Assembly: GCF_000293885.2 (NCBI RefSeq)
Contig: NZ_CP010945.1
Coordinates: 4,422,001 to 4,486,000, forward strand
Direction of reading: 5' to 3'
DNA: 64,000 nucleotides
Origin: Pseudomonas fluorescens NCIMB 11764
GTDB taxonomy: Bacteria > Pseudomonadota > Gammaproteobacteria > Pseudomonadales > Pseudomonadaceae
Translations under genes and position numbers: made by a program
The notes under the pieces: model-generated
The model's database searches: none
Told to the model about the DNA's origin: nothing
The model's input: only the letters and a program-made list of their open reading frames with translations
Shown: piece by piece, positions 6,668 to 64,000 of the stretch
How the letters are laid out: every line of letters begins with the position of its first letter
Numbering within the stretch: the stretch's first letter is position 1

Positions 6668-9600
6668 TTAGCGATCTTTATGCCGCTTGCGCACCAGTTT
6701 CATCACCACCACAAAAAACACCGGCACAAACACCACCGCCAGTGTCGCGGTGATCATCCCGCCAATCACCCCGGTGCCGATGGCCTGCTGGCTCGCCGAG
6801 CTGGCACCGGTGGCGATCGCCAGCGGCACTACGCCGAGGATGAACGCCAGGGACGTCATGACGATCGGCCGCAGGCGCAGGCGCGCGGCTTGCAGCGTGG
6901 CGTCGATCAGGTCGTGACCTTCGTCGTACAGGCTCTTGGCGAATTCGATGATCAGGATCGCGTTCTTCGCCGACAGGCCGATGATGGTGATCAGCCCGAC
7001 CTTGAAGAACACGTCGTTGGGCATTCCGCGCAAGGTCACTGCCAGCACCGCACCGAGTACGCCGAGCGGCACCACCAGCAGCACCGAGGTCGGAATCGAC
7101 CAGCTTTCATACAACGCCGCCAGGCACAGGAACACGATCAGCAACGACAAGCCGAGCAGAATCGGTGCCTGACTGCCGGACAGCCGTTCCTGCAACGACA
7201 ACCCGGTCCATTCCTGACCCAACCCTGCAGGCCCTTGCGCGACCAGCCGTTCGATTTCCGCCATGGCTTCACCGGTGCTGTGACCCGGTTTCGGTTCGCC
7301 GGAAATACTGATCGCCGGGTAGCCGTTGTAACGGGTCAATTGCGCCGGTCCCTGGGTCCATTTGGCCTGGACGAAGGCCGAGAGCGGTACCATTTTCCCG
7401 CTGCTGTTGCGCACATGGATCTTCAGCAGATCGGCGACCTGACTGCGCTGATCGCCTTCAGCCTGAACCACCACCCGTTGCATCCGCCCCTGATTGGGGA
7501 AGTCGTTGATGTAGGCCGAACCGACAGCAGTGGACAGCACGCTGCCGACGTCGGCGAACGAAACCCCCAACGCATTCGCCTGTTTGCGGTCCACGATCAG
7601 TTGCACCTGCGGCGCTTCGGCCAGCGCGCTTTCGCGCACGTTCATCAGGATCGGGCTTTTCTCGGCAGCCGCCAGCAACTGGGTGCGCGCCTGCATCAGC
7701 GTGGCATGGCCGAGGCCGCCACGGTCCTGCAAGCGGAACTCGAAACCGCTGGAGGTGCCGAGGCCGTCCACCGGTGGCGGCAGGACCGAGAACGCCATAG
7801 CGTCCTTGATCTGGCTGAACGCGATGTTGGCGCGGTCGGCAATCGAACTCGCCGAGTCGTCGTTGCCGCGATCCGACCAGTCTTTCAACGTGGTAAAAGC
7901 CAGCGCCGCGTTCTGCCCGCTGCCGGAGAAGCTGAAGCCGAGGATCACCGTGCTGTCGCCAACGCCGGGTTCCTTGGCGTTGTGGGCTTCGATCTGCTCG
8001 ACCACCTGCACCGTGCGATTCTTGCTCGCGCCGGGCGGCAATTGAATGTCGGTGATGGTGTAACCCTGATCCTCCACCGGCAGGAACGAAGAGGGCAGGC
8101 GACTGAAACACAAGCCCAGGCCGATCAGCAATACGCCATAGATCATCAGGTAGCGGCCGCTGCGTTTCAGCGCATAGGCGACCCAGCCCTGATAACGCTC
8201 GGTCAGTTGCTCGAAGCGCTTGTTGAACCAGCCGAAGAAACCGCCCTTGGCGTGATGGTCGCCCTTGGCAATCGGCTTGAGCAGCGTTGCGCAGAGCGCC
8301 GGGGTCAAGGTCAGGGCGAGGAACGCCGAGAACAGAATCGAGGTGGCCATCGACAACGAGAACTGCCGGTAAATCACCCCGACCGAACCCTGCATGAACG
8401 CCATCGGAATGAACACCGCCACCAGCACCAGGGTAATGCCGATGATCGCGCCGGTGATCTGCTTCATCGCCTTGCGGGTCGCCTCTTTCGGCGACAGGCC
8501 TTCGGTGACCATGATCCGCTCGACGTTCTCCACCACGACGATGGCGTCGTCCACCAGAATGCCAATGGCCAGCACCATGCCGAACATGGTCAGCACGTTG
8601 ATCGAGAACCCCAGCGCGAGCATGGTCGCAAAAGTGCCCATCAGCGCCACCGGCACCACCAGGGTCGGGATCAGCGTGTAGCGGATGTTTTGCAGAAACA
8701 GGAACATCACCGCGAACACCAGCACCATCGCCTCGACCAGGGTGTAAACCACTTTGGTGATCGAGACTTTGACGAAGGGCGACGTGTCGTAGGGGATCTT
8801 GTATTCGACGTTGGCCGGGAAGTAGCGCGCCAGTTCATCCATCTTCGCCCGCACCAGCGTTGCGGTGCTCAGGGCATTGGCGCCAGGCGACAACTGCACG
8901 CCGACGGCGGTGGACGGCTTGCCGTTCAGGCGCGTGCCGAACTGATATTCCTGGCTGCCGATCTCGACCCGCGCCACATCGCCGATGCGCACCGTCGAAC
9001 CGTCAGCATTGGCCTTGAGCACGATGTCGGAAAATTCTTCCGGGGTCGACAGCTGGCCTTTCACCAGAATGGTCGCGGTGATTTCCTGTGTGGTGCGGGT
9101 CGGCAGATCGCCGATGCTGCCAGCCGAGACCTGCGCGTTCTGCGCGACGATGGCCGCGTTGACGTCGGCCGGTGTCAGGTTGAAACCAATCAGCTTCTGC
9201 GGGTCGATCCAGATCCGCATCGCCCGTTCGGCACCGTACAGCTGAGCCTTGCCGACACCGTCCAGACGCTTGATCTCGTTCATCACGTTGCGCGCCAGGT
9301 AATCGCTGAGCGCCACGTCGTCGAGCTTGCCATCAGTGGAGGTCAGGGTGATCAGCAGGAGGAAGCCGGCGGAGACTTTCTCCACTTGCAAGCCTTGCTG
9401 ATTGACCGCTTGCGGCAGGCGTGACTCCACGACTTTCAGGCGGTTCTGCACATCCACCTGGGCCATTTCCGGGTTGGTGCCCGGCTGGAAAGTCGCCTTG
9501 ATCGTGGCGCTGCCGAGACTGCTTTGGGACTCGAAATACAACAGATGATCGGCGCCGTTGAGCTCTTCCTCGATCAGGCTGACCACGCTTTCGTCCACGG

Positions 9601-57237: not shown

Positions 57238-57504
57238 TTAGTGCGGCATCGACCACGATTGCAGCGCGTAACCTTCCTGGCTCAGCTCTTTACGGGCTTC
57301 TTCCAGAAACTGTTCAAGTTGTGCCGGATCGGTATAGGCACTGCTTGGAATCTGTTTGCGGCCAATACGGGTATTGGTGCGGTCGATGACGGTCAGGCTG
57401 AGTTCGCCGTTGCCGTCTTGTGGGGCCCAGGCCACGCATTGAAATGGCTGGAATGCGCGGTCGGCAATCAAAAGAGCTTCGTTGATACGGAGCGGGGCGT
57501 TCAT
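57238..57504 (-). CDS. Small conserved hypothetical protein
   Basis: An 88-residue soluble protein (MNAPLRINEALLIADRAFQP) with an alpha/beta pattern and a charged C-terminal helix (LEQFLEEARKELSQEGYALQ). The ATG at 57504 has a weak GAGAAG site; a start at 57528 is possible. I do not recognise a function. It is divergent from the VpsR-like regulator gene, separated by an AT-rich spacer. Confidence 0.7.
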   Translation of the reverse strand: MNAPLRINEALLIADRAFQPFQCVAWAPQDGNGELSLTVIDRTNTRIGRKQIPSSAYTDPAQLEQFLEEARKELSQEGYALQSWSMPH

Positions 57505-57847: not shown

Positions 57848-59173
57848 ATGATCGAAGCGCCCGCTTTACGACGCCTGTTAGTGGTGGACCCGTGTGACGA
57901 CTGCCATCGTCTGCTGCCGGGGTTGCGCGCTGTAGGTTGGGACGTTGATAGCTGCACACTGGAAAATGCCGCCGACCGAACCTGCGACGTTGGCCTGTTG
58001 CGTCTGCAGCCGTTCCATCTGGAACGCCCAGAGGCCGTCAAGGAGCTGATCAGCCGCAGCGGCACCGAGTGGATCGCCGTGCTCAACCAGGAAGTCCTGC
58101 GGCTGCAAAATGTCGGGGACTTTGTCTGCGAATGGTTTTTCGATTTTCACACCTTGCCGTTCGATGTGTCCCGGGTTCAGGTGACACTCGGCCGGGCGTT
58201 CGGCATGGCGCGCTTGCGTGGCCAGGGCACGGTTCACATCGATCAGCCGGAACACGAGTTGCTCGGCGACAGCAAGCCGATTCGCGAGCTGCGCAAACTG
58301 CTGAGCAAGCTGGCGCCCACTGAGTCTCCGGTGTTGATTCGCGGTGAGAGCGGAACCGGCAAGGAACTGGTCGCCCGGACCCTCCATCGACAATCCCAGC
58401 GGCACAGCAAACCCTTTGTCGCAATCAATTGCGGCGCGATTCCGGAACACCTGATCCAGTCCGAACTGTTTGGTCACGAGAAGGGGGCCTTCACCGGCGC
58501 CCATCAACGCAAGATCGGACGGATCGAAGCTGCGAACGGCGGAACCCTGTTTCTCGACGAAATCGGTGACCTGCCTCTGGAGCTTCAAGCCAACCTGCTG
58601 CGCTTCCTCCAGGAAAAACACATCGAGCGCGTGGGCGGCAGCCAGCCGATTCCTGTGGATGTACGGGTATTGGCGGCGACACACATTGACCTGGAAGCCG
58701 CCATCGAGAAGAAGCGCTTCCGCGAAGATTTGTACTACCGCCTCAATGTGCTGCAAGTGGTCACTGCGCCGCTGCGTGAACGCCATGGCGATCTGTCGAT
58801 GCTGGCCAACCACTTCTCCCATTTCTACAGCCATGAAACCGGCCGTCGTCCGCGCAGTTTCAGTGAAGACGCGCTGATTGCCATGGGCAAGCATGACTGG
58901 CCGGGCAACGTGCGTGAACTGGCCAACCGGGTGCGCCGCGGGTTGGTCCTGGCCGAGGGGCGGCAGATCGAGGCCCGCGACCTGGGGCTGATCAGCCAGC
59001 AGACCATCGCCGCACCGATGGGCACCCTCGAGGACTACAAGACACGCGCCGAACGCCAGGCATTGTGCGATGTATTGAACCGCCACAGTGACAACCTGAG
59101 TGTCGCCGCCCGGGTGCTGGGCGTGTCGCGGCCAACCTTTTACCGACTGCTGCACAAGCACCAGATCCGCTAG
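57848..59173 (+). CDS. VpsR-like enhancer-binding regulator (AAA+ sigma-54 type)
   Basis: A 441-residue bacterial enhancer-binding protein. The N-terminal domain (residues 1-135) is a receiver-like fold without the conserved phospho-Asp pocket, similar in layout to Vibrio VpsR (EWIAVLNQEVLRLQNVGDFV, then FDFHTLPFDVSRVQVTLGRA). The AAA+ domain has Walker A GESGTGKE, an intact sigma-54 contact loop GHEKGAFTGAHQ, Walker B GGTLFLDEIGDLP and an arginine finger region FREDLYYRLNV. A Fis-type helix-turn-helix (NLSVAARVLGVSRPTFYRLL) ends it. VpsR-type proteins can bind cyclic di-GMP and drive matrix genes. The gene converges on the fap amyloid operon across a shared terminator, so fap control is plausible but not shown. 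Confidence 0.88.
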   Translation: MIEAPALRRLLVVDPCDDCHRLLPGLRAVGWDVDSCTLENAADRTCDVGLLRLQPFHLERPEAVKELISRSGTEWIAVLNQEVLRLQNVGDFVCEWFFDFHTLPFDVSRVQVTLGRAFGMARLRGQGTVHIDQPEHELLGDSKPIRELRKLLSKLAPTESPVLIRGESGTGKELVARTLHRQSQRHSKPFVAINCGAIPEHLIQSELFGHEKGAFTGAHQRKIGRIEAANGGTLFLDEIGDLPLELQANLLRFLQEKHIERVGGSQPIPVDVRVLAATHIDLEAAIEKKRFREDLYYRLNVLQVVTAPLRERHGDLSMLANHFSHFYSHETGRRPRSFSEDALIAMGKHDWPGNVRELANRVRRGLVLAEGRQIEARDLGLISQQTIAAPMGTLEDYKTRAERQALCDVLNRHSDNLSVAARVLGVSRPTFYRLLHKHQIR

Positions 59174-59185
59174 GGCGGGGCGAAA

Positions 59186-59225
59186 CGAAAAGGCCCGCTG
59201 CGATGAACTCGCAGCGGGCCTTTTC
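59186..59225. terminator. Bidirectional intrinsic terminator between regulator and fapF
   Basis: GGCCCGCTGCGA and TCGCAGCGGGCC form a perfect 12-bp stem with a short loop (59192-59220), flanked by AAAA on one side and TTTT on the other, so it ends both convergent units. Confidence 0.95.
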
Positions 59226-59241: not shown

Positions 59242-60522
59242 TTAGAAGTAGTACGGGAATTTCAGGCTGAAGGAAAAGTCTGGCGCGTCGTCGGTTATGC
59301 CGATGGCCAGGTTGGGAACGATCGTCAGGTTATCGGAGGCTGCCAGCGTCATGCCGATGTTGAAGTTGGCCGCGTTGTAATCGCTGTTGGAAATCGATTG
59401 CCAATCGCCGCCGTCCGGTTTGATCTTGCTCTTGCGGGCGAACTGATCGGTGAACGAGAACGACATACTCATCTTCTCGTTCAAGGCGAATGCAATGCCT
59501 GCGCCGACTTGCCAGGAATCGCCCAGTTTCACGTCCCCTTTCACCTTGGAGCCGACCTGAGGGCTGATGTCGCTGAAAGAATCCTCCATGTTGTAGGTGT
59601 AGGCCAGGGAGCCGAACAGCACGGCCGGGTCGAAAGTCTTGACCAGCGAGATACCCGGGGTGATCGACCAGACACCGTTGCCGGTCGGCAAGTCCTCGGG
59701 GACCGCGAGGTTATCGTTGTTCGGGTCCTCGATCAGCTTGATGCCGTAAGGATCCTTGCCGGTCGGTGCCTTGATGCGCAAGGTAGCCACCGCGTCGGGC
59801 AGGCTGGCCGACTCATCCAGAAACTTGTAAGCCACGCCCACGTTCACATCGCCGATGGTCGGGTCGCGGGTCACGGTTGCGTCCGACGTCACCGGGCCTG
59901 CACCACCCGCGCCGCCTGAGGAATACGTTGATTCGCGATAAACCACGGGAACGTTAACGTCGAACTGCCAGCGTTGCGCCACGTTGTAGCGGGCGGTCAG
60001 GTCCAGCGTCCAGTTGTCAGCCTTGATTCGGTCGAGGTTGATGTTGCCAAGGAAAATCGAGTCCAGTGCCAGAAAGCCATTGAGCGTCAGCGCACGCGTA
60101 TCGAAGTGGGTGTAGGTCAGGCCGGTTTCGACACTGAATTTGCCGCCACCGAAGAAACCGCTGGCTTCGTCATACAGGTTTGAAACGCTTTGCGCAGGTT
60201 CGGAATCATCCTTGAGCGATTGGCCGTATGAACTGCCGGTGGTTCCCGGCGCACCGGCCGCCACCGCCTGGCCACCCCTGGACGGTTCGGCAGGGGATTT
60301 GGTCAGGCGCTTGGGCGCCGGTGTCGCCGGTGTTTCTTCGACCTGGCGAACGCGCTGCTCGAGTACCATCAGCGCGTTCTGTTGTGCTTCGTAACGCTGT
60401 TTCAACTCCATGAGTTCTTGTTTTAGTGCTTCAACCTGGGGATCCGGAGCTGCGTACAGCATTGTTCCCGGTGCCAGGCTACTCAAACAAACGATAGCCC
60501 TGAGCGTCAACGATCGGTGCAT
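59242..60522 (-). CDS. fapF: FapF, amyloid secretion outer-membrane channel
   Basis: A 426-residue outer-membrane protein; FapF trimers secrete the Fap amyloid subunits across the outer membrane. After a signal peptide (cleavage near LYA/AP) comes a coiled coil ([20 protein letters not shown], about residues 28-65), a Pro-rich linker, and a 12-strand-type beta-barrel from about residue 115 ending in the terminal aromatic [12 protein letters not shown]. The order fapC-fapD-fapE-fapF on one strand matches the known operon. Length agrees with other FapF proteins. Confidence 0.92.
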
Positions 60523-60567: not shown

Positions 60568-61308
60568 TCAGAATCCGAGAGCGCGAAGACCTTTAAGTTG
60601 ATCCAGGTTGCCATTCAGCGAACTGGTCGACGGCAGGTTATCGCGCAGTACAACGTTGATCGTCATCGCGTTGTTGACCTGGTTGCCACCGCCAAGCAAT
60701 GTCGCGTTTTGCATAAGCCCACCTTGGGCGAGGCGCTGCGCGATGCTCCCCTGGTTGTTACTGGCCACGATGTTGAGCTGCACGCCCGAGCCGGAAGATG
60801 AAATGCTCAGCGCCCCGGCACCATTGGAATGGGTCAGGGTTGAACCCGCGGCCAACACTTGCCCTTGGTTGTCCATTTGTGGCGCCTGGCCACCTTTTTG
60901 GACGTTGAGATTAACGTTGTTGTAAGCGCTGTTGTTGTCGCCGGCGGCGCGCACCACTTGAGTGACGCCCTGGGTCGTGCTCAAACCGTTACCGCCGCTG
61001 ACGGTACCGGTGCCCTGGGAAACCGCCGAGCCATTACCTGTCTGGTCGATCATCGACACATAGAACTGTGGCTTGATGGTTGTTTGCTGAATTTGCATCG
61101 AGGACGTTGCCCCGATCACTTGGCCGTTGGCATTTTGCCAAGTGCTGGTCATGACAATCCCGAAACTGACGATCCGTCCAGGCATGACATAGCGGCCTCG
61201 CAGGCTCGCCAACTCCTGATCATTCAGTTCGATGGGTTTCAATATCTGTGCCTGGGTTGGCAGGCTGGCGGCCAGGCAGACTACGGCCAGCCAGATTGGA
61301 GTCTTCAT
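60568..61308 (-). CDS. fapE: FapE, amyloid-associated minor component
   Basis: A 246-residue secreted protein with signal peptide MKTPIWLAVVCLAASLPTQA and a mature region rich in Asn, Gln, Gly and Ser, including VVRAAGDNNSAYNNVNLNVQ and LGGGNQVNNAMTINVVLRDN. FapE is known as a minor constituent of the Fap fibre whose role is not settled. GGGAG lies seven bases before the ATG, and the gene is placed between fapD and fapF as in other pseudomonads. Confidence 0.92.
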   Translation of the reverse strand: MKTPIWLAVVCLAASLPTQAQILKPIELNDQELASLRGRYVMPGRIVSFGIVMTSTWQNANGQVIGATSSMQIQQTTIKPQFYVSMIDQTGNGSAVSQGTGTVSGGNGLSTTQGVTQVVRAAGDNNSAYNNVNLNVQKGGQAPQMDNQGQVLAAGSTLTHSNGAGALSISSSGSGVQLNIVASNNQGSIAQRLAQGGLMQNATLLGGGNQVNNAMTINVVLRDNLPSTSSLNGNLDQLKGLRALGF

Positions 61309-61341: not shown

Positions 61342-62022
61342 TTAGAAGAAGTCGCTTCGGATAAATCCGAAGTCCAACAACTCTGCGTCTTGCACCGGGC
61401 TGAAGGTGTTGATGCGGTTCTTGGCGGTCAGTGGCAGGGGTGGGTCGAGCAGCGCATTGGCTTTGTCATAGCCCTGGCCAATGACGGCAAAGATGATGCC
61501 GTTCCAGCCTTTGACAAAGTCGTCGACTTTGAAACGTTTGTGACCCAGTACCGGATCTCCGATATAGACCCAGCCGTTATGGACTTTTTGCAGCACTACA
61601 AAATGTTTGTAGCCACGGATATCCAGGAGTACCACGACCGGAATTTTGATATCGCTCAACGTTTCCGCCGCTACCCGGTAGCCACGGGCCCGCATGCCGA
61701 TACTTTCCACGTAACGCTTCATGTCGAGCATGGAGAAGCCCTGGACGCGGACAATGTCTTGATCGGCGTGGGCCAGCATGCCTTCGATGATCTGATCTTC
61801 ATTCACGTCCAGCCAATAGGCCTGGCGCAAGATGGTCGCCAGCGCAGCTGCGCCGCAACTGAAGTCGGTTTTCTGTTGTACCAGGTCGGCAAATTTACGC
61901 TCGCGTACGCTCTGGATCGGCTTGTAAATCACCGCGCCGCCCGGCAGGACGGAAAGCGGCAGTTGTGCAGCCTCGATCACACTGGCCACGCAAAGCAAAA
62001 CTGCCAAGGCGATAATGCGCAT
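61342..62022 (-). CDS. fapD: FapD, C39-family peptidase of the amyloid system
   Basis: A 226-residue exported cysteine protease. A signal peptide (cleavage near IEA/AQ) precedes a C39-like catalytic domain: nucleophile Cys56 in TDFSCGAAALATIL, catalytic His140 in RGYKHFVVLQ, and Asp156 in IGDPVLG. In the Fap system FapD is required for assembly and export, probably by processing other Fap proteins. A strong hairpin between fapC and this gene may limit its transcription. Confidence 0.93.
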   Translation of the reverse strand: MRIIALAVLLCVASVIEAAQLPLSVLPGGAVIYKPIQSVRERKFADLVQQKTDFSCGAAALATILRQAYWLDVNEDQIIEGMLAHADQDIVRVQGFSMLDMKRYVESIGMRARGYRVAAETLSDIKIPVVVLLDIRGYKHFVVLQKVHNGWVYIGDPVLGHKRFKVDDFVKGWNGIIFAVIGQGYDKANALLDPPLPLTAKNRINTFSPVQDAELLDFGFIRSDFF

Positions 62023-62085: not shown

Positions 62086-63390
62086 TCAGAACGATTGGTT
62101 GGAAATGGCCAGCGAGTTGCTTTGTTGGTTGCCCACACCGGCAGCCACGTTCACGCCGAGGTTGCCACTGCCGCCATTCACCGAACCACTCAGGGTTGCA
62201 GTGTTGGTCACAGGGTTTGCCCAGCCATTTGGGGTCAGGATTTGATAGGAGACGGTGTTGCTCAAATCCCATGTATTGCTTTCGCTGTAGCCCTTAACTT
62301 CGTGCTTGGTAGAAGCGGACGATTGCTCGCCTGATTTGTCGTACGAAGAGTCAAACGATTTTGTAAACGAAGAATCGAACGCTTTTTCGAACGAAGAGTC
62401 GGTCGAATTGGAGTGCTCTGTATCGACAGATGCATCGAGCGAAGCGTTAAGCGATGCGTCGAAAGAAGCGCTGTGAGTGCGATCTCCATGGCCATAATTA
62501 ACGGTAACGGATTTGGAACCATCCGCCGCTGCTTCCAGGGAAGCGACTATAGAAGCATGGCTGGTAGCGCTGCTATCGGTGCCTTTTGAACCGCTTGCAT
62601 CGAAGTGACTGGCACCGCTGGCGTCATAACTGCTGGCACCGCTCTTGGCCCAGTTGCTGGAAGCGCTCTTATCAATGTTCAGCTCGGAGTTATGGCTGAA
62701 AGAGGCACTGCCGCTTTTGGTTGTGGTCAGCGTCACCGTAGTCAGCGCGACGTTCTGATCCGCCCTGTTGTTCACGACCAGACCAGGACCGTTTTGTTCA
62801 GCAGAGGCGGTGGCTGTTGCATTGCCAAGCGGAGCATTGGAGTTGGCAATTGCCATGGTGTTTTTCTGTTGGTTGAGGTCGCCACCAGCAATGTTGATCC
62901 CCATGTTGCCGTTGCCGCCATTGCCCGACTGGCTCATCACCGCAGAGGCTGTGGTGTTGTAGTTGTCGACCTTGTTGTTGTTGCTGTACTGCTTGACGGT
63001 GGCAGTGGCAGTGGCAACGCCGAACACGAAGGAGTTATCGAGAGCGGAGGTGGCGCCAGCGTTCGCGATGGCAGCAGCGTTGTCCTGTTGGTTACCGTCG
63101 CCTGCCGCGACGTTGATGCCGACGTTGCCGCTGGCGCCTGTGGCAGAGCCGCTCATCTCGGCGTTGTTCACAGTCCCTTGGTTAAGGATGCGGTTGCCGG
63201 TACTGCTCTGTTTGTCGTTGGCATTGGCAGTCGCGTAGACAGGGATTTTGGTAGGAGGAGGGGTGTGGTGACCGTTGTTATTATGGCCATGGTGGTCATC
63301 GTTACGACGATCGTTGCCAGCTTGTACAGCAACAGCCATGAGCGCAGCAATTGCGAAAACCAGAGGCTTGAGTGCCATCGAAGGTTTCAT
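62086..63390 (-). CDS. fapC: FapC, major functional amyloid subunit
   Basis: A 434-residue secreted protein, the main structural unit of the Fap fibre. After the signal peptide (1-24) comes a His/Asn-rich stretch (DDHHGHNNNGHH), then three imperfect amyloid repeats: GNVGINVAAGDGNQQDNAAA (residues 89-108), GNMGINIAGGDLNQQKNTMA (161-180) and GNLGVNVAAGVGNQQSNSLA (409-428). Linker 1 has about 50 residues. Linker 2 is very long (about 226 residues), rich in Ser, Asp, Ala and Thr, with repeated DAS units and three tandem copies of an 8-residue FDSS(F/Y)xKx element (about 330-353). No cysteine is present. Linker 2 length is known to vary strongly between pseudomonads. Confidence 0.93.
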   Translation of the reverse strand: MKPSMALKPLVFAIAALMAVAVQAGNDRRNDDHHGHNNNGHHTPPPTKIPVYATANANDKQSSTGNRILNQGTVNNAEMSGSATGASGNVGINVAAGDGNQQDNAAAIANAGATSALDNSFVFGVATATATVKQYSNNNKVDNYNTTASAVMSQSGNGGNGNMGINIAGGDLNQQKNTMAIANSNAPLGNATATASAEQNGPGLVVNNRADQNVALTTVTLTTTKSGSASFSHNSELNIDKSASSNWAKSGASSYDASGASHFDASGSKGTDSSATSHASIVASLEAAADGSKSVTVNYGHGDRTHSASFDASLNASLDASVDTEHSNSTDSSFEKAFDSSFTKSFDSSYDKSGEQSSASTKHEVKGYSESNTWDLSNTVSYQILTPNGWANPVTNTATLSGSVNGGSGNLGVNVAAGVGNQQSNSLAISNQSF

Positions 63391-63442: not shown

Positions 63443-64000
63443 TCAGTCCGCGACCCGTACGCTCAGGGTATTGGCCATTCGGTTTCCTACCCCGGCGCTC
63501 TGATTCAACTGGATCACCCCACGGCTACCGGTGAAAGCCTGGTCACTGGTAGTGACCTGGCGGAGGCCTGGTGCAGAGGCAGTTGGATCGGAGTTGTTGA
63601 GCAGCGCCACGTTCTGTTGCATGAGGACGCTGTCGTCGATACTTTGCGGTTGTTTACTGATGCTGATCCGCAGGGCATTGGCTTGCTGGTTGCTGGCACC
63701 CGCGCTCTGGTTTACGCCCAGAACACCGTTGCCATGGCTGAAGGAGTCGCCTTGAATGCTGGCTCGAGCATCCATCCTGGGGTCGACCTGCGTATTCAGC
63801 CGTTGGCGAATCTGAGTGGTCGCGCTGGCCGCATCGCCAATGGCGATGGCCCGGGCGTTGGCCTGTTGCTGCTGATCGCCCGCGGCCTGGTTGACCGCGA
63901 AGTTGCCTTGGTACTGACTACCGGACCCGTTGATGTCGGCGTTATTGATGATGGGTGGTTGAGCAAAGCTCGACGCACTGCAAAGCATGGCGACAATCAG
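63443..64000 (-). CDS. fapB: FapB, amyloid nucleator subunit (5' end cut by window edge)
   Basis: A secreted Fap subunit, about 185 residues visible; the first codons lie beyond base 64000 and the frame still reads LIVAMLCSASSFA as the end of a signal peptide. Three repeats are visible: NFAVNQAAGDQQQQANARAI, GVLGVNQSAGASNQQANALR and GVIQLNQSAGVGNRMANTLS. FapB is the suggested nucleator of FapC polymerisation. The three short-linker repeats and position just before fapC fit FapB; FapA should follow outside the window. Confidence 0.9.
   Translation of the reverse strand: MIVAMLCSASSFAQPPIINNADINGSGSQYQGNFAVNQAAGDQQQQANARAIAIGDAASATTQIRQRLNTQVDPRMDARASIQGDSFSHGNGVLGVNQSAGASNQQANALRISISKQPQSIDDSVLMQQNVALLNNSDPTASAPGLRQVTTSDQAFTGSRGVIQLNQSAGVGNRMANTLSVRVAD

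Follow-up and report, generated by a model that had tools for sequence, protein, structure and literature searches.

The probable fap-dedicated regulator BrfA of Pseudomonas fluorescens and the absence of its GAFTGA motif from most fap-less relatives

In Pseudomonas fluorescens PF07, the brfA gene is a 1,326-bp open reading frame that lies adjacent to and downstream of fapA-F in reverse orientation (PMC9207406). The start of fapA transcription has been mapped in that strain by 5'-RACE, and a -24/-12 (RpoN-type) element is located upstream; in rpoN and brfA mutants fap expression falls strongly and mature biofilms are defective, and fapF is not induced along with fapA-E (PMC9207406). Sensing of c-di-GMP by PF07 BrfA was described by Guo et al. 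(2024, Microbiol Res 287:127864), as cited in PMC13101488, a 2026 paper according to which BrfA-type factors are widespread in Pseudomonas. VpsR of Vibrio cholerae is regarded as a sigma-54 activator by descent in which the GAFTGA motif was lost, and the conversion of sigma-54 activators to sigma-54 independence has been inferred from scattered cases, such as VpsR, TyrR, and DhaR (PMC3162934).

We analyzed a 64,000-nucleotide stretch of the genome of P. fluorescens NCIMB 11764, hereafter the window, in which a gene at 57848-59173 lies next to fap. This gene is brfA: it is a 1,326-bp open reading frame downstream of fapA-F and in reverse orientation to them, an identification that rests on length, place, and function, with the PF07 protein known by its description rather than by sequence comparison. 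The two genes agree in the length of the open reading frame, position and orientation beside fap, the -24/-12 element of fapA, and predicted function; judged by the published description of length, place, and function, we found no difference between them. An earlier note on this DNA had suggested a specific amyloid activator that could be an undescribed regulatory arm of biofilm formation. The first part is mostly right in substance, but the regulator is not undescribed, having already been reported in PF07 (PMC9207406), so that the value of the finding is mainly confirmation of a published regulator together with a map of its promoter. The features of the locus are given below; cut-offs for FapB through FapF are the NCBIfam equivalog cut-offs, and frequencies refer to 199 sampled genomes of the genus, in which BrfA was called at E <= 1e-110 and fap was counted as present when FapD scored above its cut-off.

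57241..57504, minus strand: gene for an 88-amino acid protein, divergent from brfA, found in 196/199 genus genomes
57848..59173, plus strand: brfA, 441 amino acids, ATG start (open reading frame, Pfam, same length and position as published PF07 brfA)
57866..58192, plus strand: VpsR/receiver-like N-terminal domain, residues 7-115 (PF20161, 37.4 bits, cut-off 23.7)
58262..58759, plus strand: core of the AAA+ sigma-54 interaction domain, residues 139-304 (Sigma54_activat PF00158, 247 bits)
58343..58363, plus strand: Walker A GESGTGK, residues 166-172 (sequence, alignment)
58484..58501, plus strand: GAFTGA sigma-54 contact loop, residues 213-218 (sequence; GAFTGA or GSFTGA in 141/141 fap-bearing genus genomes)
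59048..59149, plus strand: Fis-type helix-turn-helix (HTH), residues 401-434, with recognition helix SRPTFYRLLHKH (HTH_8, alignments)
59187..59225, no strand: 17-bp hairpin between brfA and fapF (fold z -5.44)
59242..60522, minus strand: fapF, amyloid transporter (NF058560, 758 bits, cut-off 700)
60568..61308, minus strand: fapE (NF058559, 332 bits, cut-off 250)
61342..62022, minus strand: fapD, C39 peptidase (NF058616, 436 bits, cut-off 330)
62086..63390, minus strand: fapC, major amyloid subunit (NF058558, 371 bits, cut-off 195)
63443..64000, minus strand: fapB, start beyond the window end (NF058557, 293 bits, cut-off 190)
64017-64442 equivalent, just past the window end: fapA (own genome)
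64498-64511, past the window end: -24/-12 element of fapA (own genome)
64576-64593 and 64658-64675, past the window end: inverted repeats upstream of fapA (own genome)

BrfA has the AAA+ domain of sigma-54 enhancer-binding proteins with Walker A, Walker B, the arginine finger, and GAFTGA, the last of which is encoded intact as had been claimed. The VpsR-type N-terminus that the earlier note ascribed to the protein is borne out by the PF20161 match, well above its cut-off, and by an alignment with the sequence of solved VpsR (7y19, E 0.001); strands and helices alternate in this domain of the structure model. Pfam also matched AAA_lid_14, and HTH_8 scored 21.7 bits, slightly below its cut-off of 22. 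Confidence in the structure model is limited (mean pLDDT 68, TM of about 0.4 to full-length matches), and its closest folds include NtrX, VpsR, and FleQ. The best NCBIfam match, TIGR02915 (PEP-CTERM response regulator), reaches 413.5 bits and stays below the cut-off of 502.6.

The position of brfA opposite fap, as first described, holds insofar as fap is adjacent on the other strand; however, brfA converges tail-to-tail with fapF, the last gene, and thus lies away from the fap promoter. The hairpin between these two genes is a probable two-way terminator, although it was not among the results of a consensus terminator scan. The 88-amino acid neighbor was considered as a partner of BrfA and rejected. 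Although the two genes stay together where fap is missing, nearly every genome has the small gene, so its adjacency to brfA is only positional and says little about function.

The -24/-12 promoter expected upstream of fapA was found, by sequence, in 60 of 60 regions. A GG-N10-GC element, always GGC, occupies the expected position in 59 of them; at the 60th locus, where fapA itself was unrecognized, the element was recovered by a wider scan. Among these 60 loci, which are related to one another, 58 regions score at least 9 of 13, versus 2.5% of shuffles that preserve base composition only. Further upstream, an inverted repeat (TGTYWCR-N4-YGWRACA) occurs at least once in 58/59 regions and at least twice in 53/59; such shuffled regions hold 0.015 repeats each. 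In 55/59 regions the proximal repeat begins 81-84 bases ahead of the -24 GG, and the second copy is most often found near 163 bases before it. Between repeats and promoter, 53/59 regions have an IHF-like site that begins 33 bases ahead of the GG (-33), and in 43/59 the best such site reaches a score of 8 or 9 out of 9, compared with 2.9% of the composition-preserving shuffles. A scan of 47 brfA loci revealed no repeat in the 1 kb that precedes brfA, which leaves self-regulation through this motif unsupported; weak matches near +552 in four related brfA loci lie inside the brfA coding sequence.

BrfA was detected in 164 of the 199 genus genomes and FapD above its cut-off in 141, every one of which has BrfA; FapD above cut-off was found in none of the 35 BrfA-less genomes. 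Among 148 genomes sampled from the family, 44 have FapD, each together with BrfA, and 67 have BrfA-like proteins. Synteny with fap is common but not universal: in at least 12 genus genomes brfA and fap share a contig and yet are separated by about 30 kb to 2.1 Mb, the largest distance coming from a genome (G051) estimated to be 9% contaminated. All 18 unlinked fap loci retrieved (12 on the same contig, 6 on different contigs) keep the -24/-12 element and two repeats. Co-occurrence is stronger evidence than physical linkage for a tie between BrfA and fap. Three of the 141 fap-bearing genomes (G125, G076, and G052; L422, L423, and L424) have a brfA frame that is disrupted outside the GAFTGA motif, which may reflect sequencing error or strains in which control of fap was lost. 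On a contig of a gammaproteobacterial metagenome-assembled genome (L014), a partial relative of BrfA (58% over residues 1-265) adjoins fapA-, fapB-, and fapC-like genes. A C39 peptidase match that scores lower, at about 85-120 bits and under the FapD cut-off, was seen in G027, G041, G043, G093, G109, G113, G120, G123, and G154; it possibly belongs to a Fil-type pilus system instead of Fap.

We consider it very probable that brfA encodes a c-di-GMP-responsive, fap-dedicated enhancer-binding protein that uses two repeats, IHF, and a GAFTGA-sigma-54 contact. BrfA, whose presumed response to c-di-GMP is carried over from the PF07 protein to its orthologue in the window, would bind the two inverted repeats about 82 and 163 bases upstream of the fapA -24. 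IHF probably bends the DNA between repeats and promoter, and the AAA+ ring would then contact sigma-54 through GAFTGA, leading to opening of the fapA promoter. Alternatively, BrfA could be a broader biofilm regulator with fap as one of several sigma-54 targets. The strict repeat has 7 matches in the own genome, compared with 2 for a control pattern, and only two of the 7 are at fapA; a looser pattern gives three non-fap matches. At two non-fap places (1222289 and 6668961) a single repeat is followed 89 to 184 bases on by a weak GG-N10-GC, without an IHF-like site. These matches notwithstanding, the full set of two repeats, IHF-like site, and good -24/-12 element is found at fapA and nowhere else in that genome, and 22 of the 23 genomes that carry BrfA without fap also lack GAFTGA, an outcome to be expected were fap its sole sigma-54 target. 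We therefore regard a broader role as unlikely, although further targets in the own genome may exist, to judge from the repeat matches.

Since matrix genes of other pseudomonads are under the control of FleQ and AmrZ, it is conceivable that FleQ or another regulator is the main activator of fap and BrfA a secondary one; we consider this highly improbable, given the presence of BrfA in 141/141 FapD genomes and the strong reduction of fap expression in both the brfA and the rpoN mutant of PF07 (PMC9207406). The view taken in the earlier note, that the protein is a specific amyloid activator distinct from FleQ, is supported.

In reading all 164 BrfA proteins of the genus, we noticed a marked difference between genomes with and without fap. 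The motif G[AS]FTGA is present in 141/141 genomes with FapD, compared with 1/23 without it (fap-less orthologues at loci L119-L132, L134, L135, L139, L141, L142, L144, L145, and L147). In eight of the 22 motif-less proteins the only departure from GAFTGA is at the threonine, which is replaced by N, E, or D; the other 14 depart further. According to work quoted in PMC3162934, activity is mostly lost when the central phenylalanine or threonine is altered; by analogy with those mutants, we infer that the eight threonine variants would have lost sigma-54 contact. The sole exception in the genus, G137, carries a clean deletion of fap beside an intact brfA, with the last 22 residues of FapF left behind (L133, ~7830-7900). 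The family sample was read for 11 of 22 fap-less genomes with a BrfA-like protein, leaving aside an outgroup (G269, 46% identical). Nine of these 11 lack GAFTGA; the other two, G221 and G336, keep it and still have DNA similar to the fap locus and a -24/-12-like element beside brfA, where a protein search with the Fap proteins of the window found no Fap protein in either genome. Across genus and family, 31 of the 34 fap-less genomes read are without GAFTGA, and an intact copy is present in all 164 fap-bearing genomes read (141 genus, 23 family), including G277, which has an intact BrfA by fap and a second, loop-deleted copy elsewhere. The order of events suggested is that fap was lost first and the loop later. 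In other genera of the family (L273-L279, L280, L281), BrfA-like proteins are missing the entire GAFTGA loop and are changed around Walker B and the arginine finger; the second copy of G277 is one of these.

Kinship was taken into account with a gene tree of 101 BrfA proteins, built with the loop, Walker, and arginine-finger columns removed and with 98 rows counted. On this tree, some long branches of which are unsure, fap-bearing ones included, a minimum of 6 changes is needed for the GAFTGA state and of 8 for fap. Of 7 independent pairs, 5 show GAFTGA following fap, none shows the opposite, and 2 are ties (p 0.0625); the Fisher test, with a raw p of 2e-26, ignores kinship and is not to stand alone. 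We found no report of GAFTGA loss in step with fap loss in the literature searched, which covers only a minority of subscription papers, and the repeated loss by fap-less relatives of the part of BrfA that drives transcription, with the DNA-reading part kept, looks new.

Selection on the remaining domains bears on whether these proteins are decaying or repurposed. In the largest GAFTGA-less clade (18 genomes, including the members G192, G094, and G056, which evolve faster throughout BrfA than the rest), pN/pS of the loop is 0.439, versus 0.000 and 0.002 in fap-bearing groups of 16 and 14. The HTH of this clade, by contrast, stands at 0.038 (fap-bearing 0.083 and 0.077), the two parts of the AAA+ domain at 0.172 and 0.145 (fap-bearing 0.067 to 0.117), and the N-terminal domain at 0.273 (fap-bearing 0.178 and 0.128). 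This pattern indicates that sensor and ATPase are somewhat relaxed and that the HTH is not, being under strong purifying selection. For the 18-genome clade, a BrfA that still needs DNA binding and no longer needs sigma-54 contact would fit these sequences best.

That the GAFTGA-less proteins are decaying leftovers rather than repurposed regulators appears somewhat doubtful to us. Long end branches (G093, G116, G293, and G144, with several fap-bearing rows equally long) speak for decay, as do Walker B changes in some proteins and Walker A changes, GESGTGK being present in only 5/23 fap-less genus genomes; pN/pS is raised across domains for G194-G148, less so for G144-G003 and G116-G132. The graded values of the 18-genome clade run counter to decay, as do the lack of a stop inside the match in 22/22 GAFTGA-less BrfAs and the recognition helix SRPTFYRLLHKH, present in 22/23 fap-less genus genomes. 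Other GAFTGA-less lineages may be decaying, above all G194 (HTH 0.33 versus G148). The sequences suggest that BrfA has repeatedly turned into a VpsR-like regulator independent of sigma-54. The fuller form of this idea, to which we give about an even chance, is that the loop exists only for fap and that each loss of fap leads to loss of GAFTGA, the sensor, ATPase core, and recognition helix being kept, and to a VpsR-like regulator that would act on new targets without sigma-54. Many close orthologues are available both with and without the loop, the lost target is known, and the recognition helix has hardly changed, which makes the transition to sigma-54 independence directly testable.

Candidate targets were sought in 22 fap-less genomes, where the strict repeat occurs 0 to 6 times per genome and the control pattern 0 to 2 times. 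Some of the repeat places fetched (one per genome for 20 genomes, and 20 more) lie within conserved coding sequence. A repeat with GGC-N9-GC was found in 21/40 genomes; these include the BrfA-less G014 and G026, so the pattern is not specific. In 6 fap-less genomes (L299 at 1500; L428-L432 at 2000), a near-perfect TGTTTCATYATYGAAACA palindrome begins 53-59 bases ahead of a coding region whose product has a signal-like N-terminus; the one copy tested gave no Pfam match. A BrfA-type repeat directly precedes the gene for a small protein, which we take to be a STAS-domain anti-sigma antagonist, in 4 fap-less genomes (L445 and L441 at 2000; L309 at 1500; L316 at 1580). Both recurrent places serve as leads only, as the bases flanking the repeats are partly conserved too.

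Three known regulators invite comparison with BrfA. FleQ, the best match among solved structures, shares the AAA+ domain, and its N-terminal part did not align with BrfA in that match. The c-di-GMP contacts of FleQ include R144, R185, and N186, of which only R185 is matched in the BrfA alignment. BerB of Burkholderia cenocepacia resembles BrfA as a c-di-GMP-binding, RpoN-dependent enhancer-binding protein with GAFTGA that acts on biofilm genes; it differs in activating berA, which encodes an exopolysaccharide regulator, and in being reported to lack an N-terminal input domain (PMC5552954). VpsR of V. cholerae has in common with BrfA the N-terminal VpsR domain, the AAA+ domain, control of matrix genes, and c-di-GMP. 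However, the GAFTGA region of VpsR contains a deletion (PMC3162934), and VpsR acts without RpoN (PMC5552954), whereas the protein encoded in the window keeps GAFTGA. It is the BrfA orthologues of fap-less genomes that are VpsR-like in the absence of this motif; if their proposed conversion is true, VpsR-type regulators would represent a repeatable evolutionary outcome, reached at least six times here.
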